Below, piece after piece: positions 3,743 to 34,848 of a stretch of DNA of 64,000 nucleotides. The first letter of the stretch is position 1. The number at the start of each line of letters is the position of its first letter. This DNA comes from Natronococcus occultus SP4 (lineage in GTDB: Archaea; Halobacteriota; Halobacteria; Halobacteriales; Natrialbaceae), in assembly GCF_000328685.1 (NCBI RefSeq), contig NC_019974.1, forward strand, positions 859,001 through 923,000, in the 5' to 3' direction. The position numbers and the translations under genes are program-made. The notes beneath the pieces were generated by a model. It was not told the origin of the DNA. It searched no databases and worked only from the letters and a program-made list of their open reading frames with translations.

Positions 3743-5208
3743 CCGACCAACGCGAGGCGATCCGTTCGAACGCGAAGTACCTGCGAAACGTCCGCCCGAT
3801 CGACCCCGAGGAGATCTGTGACTACGTCGAGGGCAACCCCCACCCGGCGGTCGTCCGCCAACACCTCCGGGAGGAGGCCGTCTCGCTGGGCCTGCTCGAG
3901 CGCGAGGACGGCACCTTCGTCCCCGTCGACGACGAGCCCGTGAGCCCACGCCGGGGGCCGGTCGAACGCTTCCCCGCCCGCTACGAGGAACGACTGGAGG
4001 ACCTGCTCGTCGACCGGTACGGCGTCGACTGGCACCGCGACGCAACGGGCCAGCTGCTTCGGTCGACGATCCGTCGGTTCAAATCCCGCTACCTCGAGGG
4101 CCGTCCCGTCGAGTACGACGACGACGTCGCGGCGGGGTACGCGATCTATCACCTCCCGGGCTACTACGCCGCAATCCAGTACGCGCTCGACGACCTGGCC
4201 GAGCGGAGCCTGCTGGACCGGGAGCTGCGCGTCCTCGATATCGGCGCCGGGGTCGGCGGCCCCGCGCTCGGGCTCTGTGACTACCTCCCCGACGACGTCG
4301 TCGTCGACTACCACGCGATCGAACCCAGCGCAGCCGCCGACGTCCTCGAGGGGTTGCTCGCGGAAACGGGTCGGAACGTCCACGCGACGATCCACCGCGA
4401 CCCCGTCGAGGACGTCGACCTCGGCGCGCTCGGCGGCGACGACGGGTTCGACCTCGTCCTCGCCTGCAACGTACTGAGCGAGGTCGCCGATCCCGAGGCG
4501 GTCGCCCGCTCGGCGCTTTCGGCGCTGACGCCCGACGGGACCTTCCTGGCGATGGCGCCTGCGGACAAGAACACGAGCGTCGAGCTCCGGGCGCTCGAAC
4601 GGGAGCTCGAGGGGACGACCGTTCCCGGGGCGGCCGGCGAGAGCGAGGACTCGGACCGGGAGGTCACCGTCTACGGCCCGACAGTCCGGCTCTGGCCCGG
4701 GGCGACGCCGACCGACCGCGGCTGGTCGTTCGACGTCCGGCCCGATCTGGCGGTGCCGTCGTTCCAGCGCCGACTCGACGAGGCGACGCCGGCGGACGAC
4801 GACGACCACGCCCCCGGCGAGTTCGTCAACGTCGACGTCCAGTTCTCCTACTCGCAGCTGCGCCTCGACGGACGGCGCCGCGTCGAGATCGCCCTCGAGA
4901 CCAGCGACTGGGCGAAGCTGGCCGAGACCGAGCGCCACGTCACCAACCGGATCGATCTGGCCGCGGCGAAGCTCAGCCGCTCGCTGTCGGACGCGGGCGC
5001 GAACCCCCTGTTCAAGATCAGCGACGGCAGCGAGGACGTCGATCACTACGCCGTGCTCACCCGGGAGAGCGCGCTCAACCGTGCGCTGCTCGAGGCCGAC
5101 TACGGCGAGGTGCTCACGTTCGAGGGCGTCCTCGCGCTGTGGAACGACGACGAGGAGGCGTACAACCTGGTCGTCGACGAGGAGACGGTCGTCGATCGGA
5201 TCGGATAA
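3739..5208 (+). CDS. Rsm22-like SAM-dependent methyltransferase
   Basis: A 489-residue protein. After an N-terminal helical region, a class I methyltransferase core begins at about residue 165 with VLDIGAGVGGPAL, followed by an acidic strand end and a CNVLSEV segment typical of the Rsm22 family of ribosomal small subunit rRNA methyltransferases. A C-terminal part after about residue 365 (EFVNVDVQFSYSQLR) may be an RNA-contacting domain. The Rsm22 name is from family resemblance; the rRNA target is not shown. The start overlaps tyrA by 4 bp, so it is translated with it, although no shared pathway is obvious. Confidence 0.75.
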   Translation: MTDQREAIRSNAKYLRNVRPIDPEEICDYVEGNPHPAVVRQHLREEAVSLGLLEREDGTFVPVDDEPVSPRRGPVERFPARYEERLEDLLVDRYGVDWHRDATGQLLRSTIRRFKSRYLEGRPVEYDDDVAAGYAIYHLPGYYAAIQYALDDLAERSLLDRELRVLDIGAGVGGPALGLCDYLPDDVVVDYHAIEPSAAADVLEGLLAETGRNVHATIHRDPVEDVDLGALGGDDGFDLVLACNVLSEVADPEAVARSALSALTPDGTFLAMAPADKNTSVELRALERELEGTTVPGAAGESEDSDREVTVYGPTVRLWPGATPTDRGWSFDVRPDLAVPSFQRRLDEATPADDDDHAPGEFVNVDVQFSYSQLRLDGRRRVEIALETSDWAKLAETERHVTNRIDLAAAKLSRSLSDAGANPLFKISDGSEDVDHYAVLTRESALNRALLEADYGEVLTFEGVLALWNDDEEAYNLVVDEETVVDRIG

Positions 5209-9435: not shown

Positions 9436-10218
9436 TCAGCAGTAGCAGCTCTTCTTCTTGTCGTCGTGCTTGTCGGTCTTCTTGTCGTCGTGCTTGTCCG
9501 TCTTGTCGTCCTTCTTGTCGTCCTTCTTATCGTCGTGCTTGTCCGTCTTGTCGTCCTTCTTGTCGTCCTTCTTATCGTCGTGCTTGTCCGTCTTGTCGTC
9601 CTTCTTATCGTCGTGCTTGTCCGTCTTGTCGTCCTTCTTGTCGTCCTTCTTATCGTCGTGCTTGTCGCACTTGTCCGACTTCTCGTCAACCTTGTCGGCG
9701 AACTTATCGGCGAACTTGTCCGTCTTGTCGTCCTTGTCCGCGTGCTTGTCGGTCTTCTTATCGTCGTACTTGTCCGTCTTGTCGTACTTGTCCGCCTTCT
9801 CCTCGTACTTGTCCGCTTTGTCCGCGTACTTGTCCGCCTTCTCCTCGTACTTGTCCGCCTTGTCAGCGTACTTGTCGGCTTTGTCCGTGTACTTGTCCGC
9901 CTTCTTATCGTCGGCTTTGTCCGTGTACTTGTCCGCCTTCTTATCGTCGGCTTTGTCCGTGTACTTGTCCGCCTTCTTATCGTCGGCTTTGTCGTCCTTC
10001 TTGTCCGTCTTGTCGTCAGCTTTGTCGTCCTTCTTGTCGTCGTGTTTCTCGTCGGCTTTGTCGTCAGCTTTCTCTAGTTTCTCTTTGTCGACGTCGTCGT
10101 CGACTTTCTCGTCGGCTTTGTCGTCGTCCGTCGCGATCACACCGGCACCACTAACGACGGCGACCGCCATCATCAGTGCCATCACGAGCGCGATCGAGCG
10201 TTTCGATATGTTCACCAT
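9436..10218 (-). CDS. Exported Asp/Lys repeat protein
   Basis: A 260-residue protein with an N-terminal signal sequence (SIALVMALMMAVAVVSGAGV, residues 8-27) and a mature part made almost only of Asp and Lys, with Ala, Thr, His, Tyr and Glu. After about residue 30 it contains no Gly, Pro, Arg, Asn, Gln, Trp or Ile. Blocks repeat: a 12-residue unit (YTDKADDKKADK) three times, and DDKK/TDKH units built from 12-bp steps near the C-terminus. It ends in KKKSCYC. Lysine richness is unusual for a haloarchaeal protein. I chose the start at 10218 because it begins the signal peptide. It is probably secreted or surface-attached; function unknown. Confidence 0.7.
   Translation of the reverse strand: MVNISKRSIALVMALMMAVAVVSGAGVIATDDDKADEKVDDDVDKEKLEKADDKADEKHDDKKDDKADDKTDKKDDKADDKKADKYTDKADDKKADKYTDKADDKKADKYTDKADKYADKADKYEEKADKYADKADKYEEKADKYDKTDKYDDKKTDKHADKDDKTDKFADKFADKVDEKSDKCDKHDDKKDDKKDDKTDKHDDKKDDKTDKHDDKKDDKKDDKTDKHDDKKDDKKDDKTDKHDDKKTDKHDDKKKSCYC
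9492..9704. repeat. Tandem 45/33-bp repeats inside the Asp/Lys gene
   Basis: Copies of the block beginning GCTTGTCCGTCTTGTCG start at 9492, 9537, 9582 and 9615, with the next partial at 9660. The steps are 45, 45, 33 and 45 bp. The 33-bp step is the 45-bp unit minus one 12-bp DDKK unit, showing expansion and contraction in whole 12-bp steps that keep the reading frame. Confidence 0.85.
9887..9994. repeat. Three 36-bp tandem repeats inside the Asp/Lys gene
   Basis: The unit beginning GTGTACTTGTCCGCCTTC starts at 9887, 9923 and 9959, exactly 36 bp apart and nearly identical. It encodes the 12-residue unit YTDKADDKKADK on the minus strand. Confidence 0.85.
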
Positions 10219-11408: not shown

Positions 11409-11638
11409 GCGTCGTTGAACTACTCTTGAGTACGTATTTCCCCAGACCCGATAAATTCATTTTACGGAATAGTTTGAATTTCATAAAATCCAATACAATT
11501 CGTACGAGAACCCGACTAGGGGTTTGGTGCGGAGTCCGGGTGGGCACCGTCGCCTAGTACGTCGTCGCCCTGAGAGTAGCTCACGACCGAGACGGCGTCG
11601 CAGCTCTGATTCGTCGGCATCGCGACGAACATACCGCC

Positions 11639-32724: not shown

Positions 32725-32784
32725 ACTGGGATATTCGTAGCCGAATACTTAGGGCGGTCGGTCCGTCCTCGGGCCGACGGATCA

Positions 32785-33155
32785 AACGTGAGAAGAGTAC
32801 GTTTCCGCTGTTCTTCGCTCCCTGGTGGAGGGGGGAGAGTACATTTCCGCTGTTCTTTGTTCTGCAGTGGGTGTGAGAGAGTACGTTTCCGCTGTTTTCG
32901 CTCCTTGGTGGAGGTGAGAGAGTACGTTTCCGCTGTTCTTTGTTCCGCAGTGGGTGTGAGAGAGTACGTTTCCGCTGTTCTTTGTTCCGCAGTGGGTGTG
33001 AGAGAGTACGTTTCCGCTGTTCTTTGTTCCGCAGTGGGTGTGAGAGAGTACGTTTCCGCTGTTCTTTGTTCCGCAGTGGGTGTGAGAGAGTACGTTTCCG
33101 CTGTTCTTTGTTCCGCAGTGGGTGTGAGAGAGTACGTTTCCGCTGTTCTTCGCTT
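32785..33155. repeat. Nine-copy 42-bp tandem repeat array (candidate initiator-binding sites)
   Basis: The core GAGAGTACGTTTCCGCTGTT recurs head to tail. Its GTAC begins at 32797, 32839, 32881, 32922, 32964, 33006, 33048, 33090 and 33132; every step is 42 bp except one of 41. The five units from 32922 to 33090 are essentially identical and the outer ones diverge. GTTTCC(G/A)CTG resembles half of the archaeal mini-ORB (GTTTCCACTGG-type). Each unit also carries a GTGGGTGTG G-rich tract. No unique spacers are present. Confidence 0.9.
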
Positions 33156-33369
33156 CACGAGCGTAGACAGTATCCTATCAAATGCGAATCTTTATAGTGA
33201 ATTGTTGGAAATAAATCCCGTATTGGGTTTTCCAGGGAGCAAAGGGAAAGAATTGACCGACCGCGACCAAGGTCCTGCTCCGTATTTCCTTGAGCGGTTC
33301 GAGTATGCGTCTGACGGACGCTCTCCACTACTCTCAGTCCTGCTATCCCACACCTTTCGCGGAGCCGAG

Positions 33370-33389
33370 AACAGCGGAAATATACTCTC
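33370..33389 (-). promoter_or_regulatory. Inverted copy of the repeat core
   Basis: AACAGCGGAAATATACTCTC matches the reverse complement of the array core at 18 of 20 positions. It faces the array across the AT-rich segment, the arrangement of ORB elements flanking a duplex unwinding element. Confidence 0.7.
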
Positions 33390-33411
33390 CCTCTTCGTAT
33401 AAAGAATCTCG

Positions 33412-33441
33412 AACAGAGGAAACAGAGGAAACAGAAGAAAC
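33412..33441. repeat. Three overlapping half-sites, 9-bp period
   Basis: AACAGAGGAAAC occurs at 33412 and 33421, and AACAGAAGAAAC at 33430. The first two match AACAGCGGAAAC, the half-core of the array, at 11 of 12 positions. They lie just before the orc promoter and may be autoregulatory. Confidence 0.5.
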
Positions 33442-33446
33442 CCGGT

Positions 33447-33458
33447 GATTTATGTAAT
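33447..33458 (+). promoter_or_regulatory. TATA region of the orc gene
   Basis: GATTTATGTAAT is centred about 27 nt before the ATG at 33480, which predicts a leaderless orc transcript starting next to the half-site cluster. Confidence 0.5.
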
Positions 33459-33479
33459 ATGGGGTGAATACCTGACGCA

Positions 33480-34673
33480 ATGACCAAGTCTAGAGATAAC
33501 CCACTCATGGATTTTGGAGACAGTGTCTTCACTAATCGGGATGCACTATCCGAGTCCTACGAACCTGATCGGCTCCTCGAGCGAGACGAAGAGATCAACG
33601 AGTATGCAGCCGCACTCCGGCCGGTAGTTGAGGGTGACACGCCAGACAACATCATGGTGTACGGTACGACTGGTGCAGGAAAGACGGCGGTCACTCGATA
33701 CATGGCCGAGATGACGGATGAAGCGTGTGAAAACAACGGAAATGTACTCTCTATTGCCGAGCTGAATTGCAACGAGATGTCCGCATTCAAGGTCGTTCGG
33801 ACACTCGTGAACATGCTGCGGGATGACGGCGAGAAGAATTTTCCCGCCCGTGGACTCTCGACACGAGACGCTCTTGACGCCCTCTACGAAGAAATCGACT
33901 CTCACAAAGGGACGTTTCTGCTGATCCTTGACGAGATCGACCACATCGAAAACATCGATACGCTGTTGTACGATCTGAGCCGGAGCCAGTCGACCGGTCG
34001 ACTCGAAGACACCAAAGTCGGTATCATCGGTATCTCGAACGACTACACTTTCCGAGACGTACTTTCGGCAAAGACGAAGGGCTCATTTGCTGAAATCGAG
34101 ATCGATTTCAAGCCCTACACTGCCGACGAACTCGAGTCTATTCTTTCCGATCGGGCGACTGTCGCGTTCGCCGATGGTGCCATCTCCACCGAAGCGATCC
34201 GTCTTTGCGCTGCGCTGTCAGCCCAAGATAGCGGCAACGCACGCCAAGGGCTCGATATCCTTCGAGCTGCCGGAAAGACCGCAGACGATCAGAACGACGA
34301 CGCCGTGACCGTTGAGCATATCCGAGAAGCACAGGGAAAGATCGAGCGCGGCAACCTCAAGAAGCGGATCGGCAATCTTACCGTTCAACAGCGGCACATT
34401 CTCCATGCGCTCGCTCTCCTCGAAGCCGACGAGAAGACGCCTGCGAGAACAAAGGAAATCTACTCTCTCTACGAGCAGGTATGCGACCAATCTTCGCTAG
34501 ATCCCCTGTCGACTGTGAGAAGCGTCCGTGATCATCTCGACGAGCTGTCGATGCAGGGATTCGCTGATCAGATCACTCGGAACGAGGGGCGTTCTGGCGG
34601 CAAGTATCATGTCTACGAGTGTTCGATGCGCTCCGATCTCGTGCTCTCGACAGGCCCGCGGGACAGCTACTGA
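33480..34673 (+). CDS. orc: Orc1/Cdc6 replication initiator
   Basis: A 397-residue AAA+ initiator that binds origin repeats and opens DNA. The Walker A GTTGAGKT is at residues 62-69 and the Walker B LILDEID has D151-E152. Sensor-like SNDYTFRDVLSAKTKGSF follows. GNARQGLDILRAAG lies in the lid, and a C-terminal winged helix (about 300-385) has TVRSVRDHLDELSMQGF. GC content is lower than in neighbours and the codon choice differs, as often seen in non-main origins or acquired replicons. Two sequences inside the coding region match the upstream repeat core. It probably serves the repeat array at 32785. Confidence 0.93.
   Translation: MTKSRDNPLMDFGDSVFTNRDALSESYEPDRLLERDEEINEYAAALRPVVEGDTPDNIMVYGTTGAGKTAVTRYMAEMTDEACENNGNVLSIAELNCNEMSAFKVVRTLVNMLRDDGEKNFPARGLSTRDALDALYEEIDSHKGTFLLILDEIDHIENIDTLLYDLSRSQSTGRLEDTKVGIIGISNDYTFRDVLSAKTKGSFAEIEIDFKPYTADELESILSDRATVAFADGAISTEAIRLCAALSAQDSGNARQGLDILRAAGKTADDQNDDAVTVEHIREAQGKIERGNLKKRIGNLTVQQRHILHALALLEADEKTPARTKEIYSLYEQVCDQSSLDPLSTVRSVRDHLDELSMQGFADQITRNEGRSGGKYHVYECSMRSDLVLSTGPRDSY
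33732..33751 (-). promoter_or_regulatory. Repeat-core match inside the orc coding region
   Basis: AACAACGGAAATGTACTCTC matches the reverse complement of the array core at 18 of 20 positions, in the same orientation as the inverted copy at 33370. It encodes NNGNVLSI, so it also serves as protein sequence. Confidence 0.5.
34448..34467 (-). promoter_or_regulatory. Weaker repeat-core match near the end of orc
   Basis: AACAAAGGAAATCTACTCTC matches the array core (reverse complement) at 16 of 20 positions, again in the same orientation. It may be chance, but it keeps the GGAAA and TACTCTC parts. Confidence 0.3.
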
Positions 34674-34848
34674 TTTTCACGAGACGTCGGCGAGGCGGAA
34701 CGGTTGTCGCCTCGTCTCTGGTTGTGAGCCGTTCACACCAGAGTCGACGGCAAGTATTGTGAGTCGATGAGGGGTTCTTCGTCTGCGATCGAAGCTGGGT
34801 CGACAGGTCGGCGAGACGCATTTCAACTGCGGGTTCGAAGTCACGGGT

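Follow-up and report, generated by a model that had tools for sequence, protein, structure and literature searches.

The multiplicity of orc genes in haloarchaea raises the question of how an Orc confines itself to its own origin. Haloarchaeal origins follow a described plan in which repeats, an AT-rich segment, an inverted repeat and an orc gene lie together (Wu et al. 2012, PMC3528665). The archaeal ORB consensus is CTTCCAGTGGAAACGAAAGGGGT (PMC4153887), the G-string matters for oriC1 of Haloarcula hispanica (PMC4010727), and the element TAACAGCGGAAACAGTGGGG has been published for two other haloarchaea (PMC3528665). An ORB cluster downstream of the initiator restrains its origin in Haloarcula hispanica (PMC3936714), and an origin newly acquired by a haloarchaeon can lie dormant (PMC4595724). 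In this study, we analyzed a window of 64,000 nucleotides (4.01-Mb contig, positions 859001-923000) from a haloarchaeon whose genome measures 4.31 Mb. The window contains a locus that is very probably a real but accessory replication start site in this salt-loving archaeon. The explanation that we consider likely is an accessory haloarchaeal origin, moving horizontally and equipped with its own Orc1/Cdc6 and box family, for which binding, unwinding, firing and feedback are predicted; its wild-type activity is uncertain. The new part consists of conserved boxes inside the initiator gene and a clean A/B pair of box and initiator.

A preliminary description of this DNA had placed nine direct repeats, an AT-rich segment, an inverted core copy and an orc1/cdc6 gene together, and box search and composition find all of them where it put them (Table 1). 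The adjacency of origin repeats and initiator, which it took to be established in haloarchaea, matches the published plan (PMC3528665). It had overlooked two boxes inside the gene and a run of half-boxes at 33412-33441. Its orc1/cdc6 assignment and the lower GC it reported for that gene are both borne out below, and its core, quoted as GTTTCC(G/A)CTG, needs correction, the variable base being the first, i.e. (G/A)TTTCCGCTG. It had also spoken of nine near-identical 42-bp repeats. Nine copies are present, with 42 bp between boxes seven times and 41 bp once, and Tandem Repeats Finder reports a single array with a period of 42, 8.6 copies and 90% matches. Five whole 42-mers (32918-33127) are identical and the remaining linkers vary; the array has thus expanded recently. 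Because the orthologous locus L058 keeps two boxes 42 bp apart across an unrelated linker, 42 bp reads as a spacing, and what is conserved is the box plus its spacing rather than a 42-bp unit. With spacings of 41-42, 51 and 52 bp, close to four or five turns of the helix, the boxes would share one helix face. Open reading frames across the array were rejected as coding since the repeat itself produces them, with linkers varying among relatives and boxes constant.

Table 1. Features of the candidate origin (window coordinates).
Feature	Position	Strand	Remarks
Array of nine direct boxes, GAGTACRTTTCCGCTGTT	32788..33150	+	Proposed left arm of initiator-binding sites
Core spans, first five of nine	32795-32812, 32837-32854, 32879-32896, 32920-32937, 32962-32979	+	
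Core spans, last four of nine	33004-33021, 33046-33063, 33088-33105, 33130-33147	+	
AT-rich segment, candidate duplex-unwinding element	33169..33240	.	37.5% GC; lies between oppositely oriented boxes
Inverted box, GAGTATATTTCCGCTGTT on the - strand	33370..33387	-	Kept in L057 and L058
Overlapping 9-bp half-boxes, AACAGAGGA x3.3	33412..33441	-	Tandem Repeats Finder; kept in L057 and L058
orc1/cdc6 family initiator gene, 397 aa	33480..34673	+	C-terminal winged helix
In-gene box site 1, GAGTACATTTCCGTTGTT	33732..33749	-	In 3/4 orthologues, despite amino-acid changes (N/S, V/A)
In-gene box site 2, GAGTAGATTTCCTTTGTT	34448..34465	-	In 4/4 orthologues; codons 323-328 identical throughout

The boxes are specific to this locus. 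When the whole 4.31-Mb genome was searched with GAGTACGTTTCCGCTGTT, all 11 matches with up to two mismatches lay at the orc locus, about 0.1 being expected by chance genome-wide, and a reversed control pattern gave no genome match at the same threshold; chance is ruled out as the source of the box matches. The intergenic region next to orc holds nine direct boxes and one inverted box, where two or more are looked for in a haloarchaeal origin, and boxes in inverted orientation flank the AT-rich segment (37.5% GC versus 66.2% for the whole window). A partly conserved CCGTAYTGG...GACCGRCCGC overlaps and follows this segment in an alignment of three orthologous regions. Potential for DNA structure in the segment was no better than in shuffles. 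Just upstream of a conserved TATA-like ATTTATG sits the half-box run, which we propose as putative autoregulatory or auxiliary binding sites. Elsewhere in the window, the most AT-rich 72-bp stretches (31%–33% GC) lie at 11417-11525, away from the candidate origin, and long imperfect tandem repeats of the CTTGTCGTCC type extend over about 650 bp at 9456-10126.

The window gene encodes a full and apparently intact Orc1/Cdc6. Its product scores 399.3 bits against TIGR02928 (cut-off 181.3), the Cdc6 lid and winged-helix domains (PF22703 and PF09079) are above cut-off, and the Walker A (GTTGAGKT) and Walker B (LLILDEID) motifs of an AAA+ protein are intact. The nearest solved chains are 2qby_A (Cdc6 homologue 1) and 2v1u_A (another archaeal Cdc6 homologue), and the protein was aligned with the structurally solved Orc1 of Sulfolobus and of Aeropyrum. 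At 54.9%, GC of the gene is the fifth lowest among 315 windows of its size, and third-position GC is 0.64 versus 0.89-0.90 in two neighbors. The host genome has about 17 orc loci; the nearest paralogue of the window Orc is only 42% identical, and thus the gene is not a recent duplicate.

In a tree of 48 Orcs, the window gene groups with its orthologues L057, L058 and L059 (clade A, 100/100), next to a sister clade B (100/100) whose members are about 47%–49% identical to the window Orc. The L177 and L178 Orcs, at 48%–49% identity, are accompanied by boxes of clade-B type. The clade A box is GAGAGTACRTTTCCGCTGTT and that of clade B approximately GAGAGTACRTTTCGTSTGYT, the outer half being common and the inner half clade-specific; judging by tree and boxes together, box and Orc co-diverge between the two sister clades. 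A winged-helix difference in the putative recognition helix, RSVRDH in clade A versus KSIQDH in clade B, is a candidate basis of box specificity. Other nearby orc families have boxes such as ACACCACTGTGTCCGCTG, with a GTGGTGT string on the reverse strand, and in both clades TACTCTC occupies the position of the haloarchaeal G-string. The preliminary description was right that this is no textbook ORB or mini-ORB, as the CAGYGGAAACG core is the only part shared with CTTCCAGTGGAAACGAAAGGGGT, the left dyad half and the G-string being missing. Its suggestion of a private site family was largely right given the co-divergence, the confinement of the boxes to the locus and the lack of a G-string, but the ORB core is shared and the published TAACAGCGGAAACAGTGGGG includes AACAGCGGAAAC, so that the window box is not wholly private.

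Polarity is consistent in both clades. Among ten clade-B loci, 25/25 upstream boxes are on the + strand, i.e., that of the gene, and 26/27 downstream boxes are on the - strand; in clade A the left boxes are all + and those to the right of the AT-rich segment, including the in-gene ones, all -. The boxes point toward the AT-rich segment, and the right-side set in the window comprises the inverted box (33370-33387), the half-boxes (33412-33441) and the two in-gene boxes.

Both in-gene boxes lie at fixed codon offsets among the orthologues and score 29-35 bits under a matrix for which only intergenic boxes were used, the intergenic variants being partly drawn from two of the same orthologue loci. 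In synonymous shuffles, the second-best in-gene site was equalled in none of 5000 for the window, L058 and L059 genes, as was the single in-gene site of L057, which carries an additional box just past the orc stop codon. The top site alone was equalled in 58/5000 shuffles of the window gene (1 and 2/5000 for L058 and L059), and the weight therefore rests on the two sites together rather than on either alone. The window orc and L057 have a synonymous identity of 0.42, where independent codons, i.e., saturation, would give 0.39, and yet codons 323-328 (AGA ACA AAG GAA ATC TAC) are the same in 4/4 orthologues, the longest codon-identical run of the gene. The in-gene boxes thus appear to be conserved by codon choice though other silent positions are near-saturated, a comparison of four orthologues of which two are close (84% of codons are common to L058 and L059). 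In-gene boxes were rejected as a property of orc genes at large: when about 25 other orc loci were searched, each with the motif of its own locus, the only in-gene box was one near the stop codon of L041, and the ten clade-B loci have none. In the open-access literature, no published case of boxes within archaeal orc genes was found. On balance, we lean toward the view that the right arm of the origin runs through its own initiator gene, with putative Orc boxes in the codons under DNA-level selection that would couple Orc amount, orc transcription and origin occupancy.

The module is lineage-restricted, low in GC and accessory. This orc occurs in 4/125 genomes of the family, its close orthologues being from Natrialbaceae (Natronolimnohabitans, Haloterrigena, Natronorubrum), and it is absent altogether from other species of the genus, which makes it dispensable. 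At L058, about 2.7 kb of DNA with a transposase gene and another long ORF separates array and orc. The L059 orc (3998-5092) is a decaying initiator: its N-terminus and GAGKT of Walker A are gone, and both in-gene boxes persist. An ORF with an integrase domain lies at a distance of about 3.4 kb from it. Direct-array counts are 9, 2 and 2 in orthologues and 2, 1 and 2 in relatives without the gene. These relatives from the same genus, G003, G005 and G006, have one or two boxes in the same slot, which queD and a cinA-like gene border, in one case with an exact core. In G003 and G006, a common stretch also matches the sequence around the orc stop and immediately beyond it. Exact cores amid flanks of about 76%–80% identity could reflect chance, recent loss or a second user. 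On a genus tree from two genes, boxes are found on both sides of a fork; the module was therefore probably present in that ancestor and then lost more than once. A clade-B type box, GAGTAGATTTCGTGTGCT, also occurs outside the window (G000:C1:2955568-2955585) in a genome for which the matches include no clade-B orc, and is possibly another orphan.

The gap from queD to the cinA-like gene (window 32725-34848; same slot in G001-G008) is itself a turnover hotspot whose cargo varies by species. In G005 (L084 7285-7933), a VapB antitoxin and a PIN-domain toxin stand in the place of orc, next to an orphan box; read by eye, the cargo is transporter-like in G002, an ABC-transporter-like set in G007 and a small regulator-like ORF in G001, G004 and G008. 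A viral origin of the module was rejected, as no viral contig has a near relative or an exact box and phage matches are at most 28% identical, and so was a plasmid origin, as identity to plasmid Orcs does not exceed about 47% and no plasmid matches the upstream region.

Several other explanations of these observations need to be weighed. The parts could be right in an origin that does not fire in the wild type, Orc and boxes being a recent acquisition or a backup; in anatomy this dormant or decaying origin is a sub-case of our best explanation and differs from it in activity, and we put its chances a little short of even. Dormant orc-adjacent origins of Haloferax mediterranei have been ascribed to recent acquisition (PMC4595724), and the patchy distribution and low GC, the damaged orthologues and the orphan boxes in relatives are all compatible with dormancy. 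So is the skew: in 60 stretches of 20 kb sampled along the chromosome, neither GC nor purine skew turns at this locus, and elsewhere no clear turning point is seen. However, the gene is intact, the array has lately expanded with identical units, and the codon-level constraint on the in-gene boxes speaks for a function not long ago. Rather unlikely, in our judgment, is a nine-box array acting mainly as an initiator sink (cf. oriC2D, or datA of E. coli), the true origin then being the segment of inverted box and half-boxes, or lying elsewhere. Cdc6E is indeed titrated, and oriC2 restrained, by eleven ORBs located downstream of cdc6E (PMC3936714), and the array grows and shrinks among orthologues and orc-less relatives, but it lies upstream, on the origin side, facing the AT-rich segment like origin boxes, and the likely sink position in sister clade B is downstream.

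We also think it quite unlikely that the in-gene boxes are coincidence or the product of protein constraint. Site 2 does encode a conserved peptide (RTKEIYSLY), the orthologues are few, the permutation P for the six-codon identical run alone is only 0.03, and the shuffles that match the top site of the window gene point the same way. Against this, the two sites jointly were never matched in synonymous shuffles of three orthologues, only about 3e-5 box matches with up to two mismatches are expected within the gene, the AGA and ACA codons have a frequency of 2%–3% in neighboring genes, and site 1 persists while its amino acids change. That the repeats serve control of queD, or another DNA-binding protein, with orc adjacent by accident, is very improbable. 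In its favor, queD has box 1 about 70 bp upstream, and the core of that box is unchanged in three orc-less species while the flanks are not. However, orthologous orc genes in other, unrelated contexts have these boxes too, the sister orc clade comes with related ones, and at five queD loci of the genus a box is absent.

Returning to the paired origin and initiator that we prefer, the Orc would recognize its own box family, GAGAGTACRTTTCCGCTGTTCT, in which the archaeal ORB core is kept and the G-string replaced. It would bind the nine phased boxes of the left arm as well as a right arm made up of one inverted box, the overlapping half-boxes and the two boxes within orc. Orc bound to both arms, which face the AT-rich segment (about 33.17-33.24 kb), would strain it as in known archaeal origins, with duplex opening and MCM loading predicted to take place there. 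Since the right-side boxes coincide with the promoter and coding sequence of orc, Orc would limit its own supply: once bound there, it would repress transcription of orc and sequester free Orc, giving a feedback limit on firing whose nearest tested precedent is the downstream ORB cluster of Haloarcula hispanica (PMC3936714). If the in-gene boxes bind Orc, they would be a built-in feedback device. Sister Orc clades with cleanly different boxes offer a ready pair for swapping recognition, and the empty slots with orphan boxes in sister species catch an origin being gained and lost.

Among known systems, the locus is close in layout to haloarchaeal orc-adjacent origins (Wu et al. 2012, PMC3528665), with which it shares a position beside orc, an AT-rich segment with inverted boxes on its two sides, a family-specific Orc with boxes to match, and gain and loss in variable regions; it differs in a box without the G-string, nine evenly spaced direct boxes and boxes within orc. 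Its box agrees with the archaeal ORB/mini-ORB (PMC4153887) at 10/11 bases of the CAGYGGAAACG core, whereas it has GAAC for the left dyad half TTCC and TACTCTC for AAAGGGGT. As at oriC2-cdc6E/oriC2D, many boxes lie beyond the AT-rich segment, on or past the initiator gene, and would be suited to titration, but the oriC2D cluster is intergenic and downstream (PMC3936714) while the far-side boxes of the window are in the promoter and inside the gene. Their positions fit a sink of the oriC2D type only in part. The origin of phage lambda lies inside gene O. There, as with the candidate sites described here, initiator-binding sites are embedded in the initiator gene, although the initiator is unrelated and the main origin of lambda itself lies in the gene.
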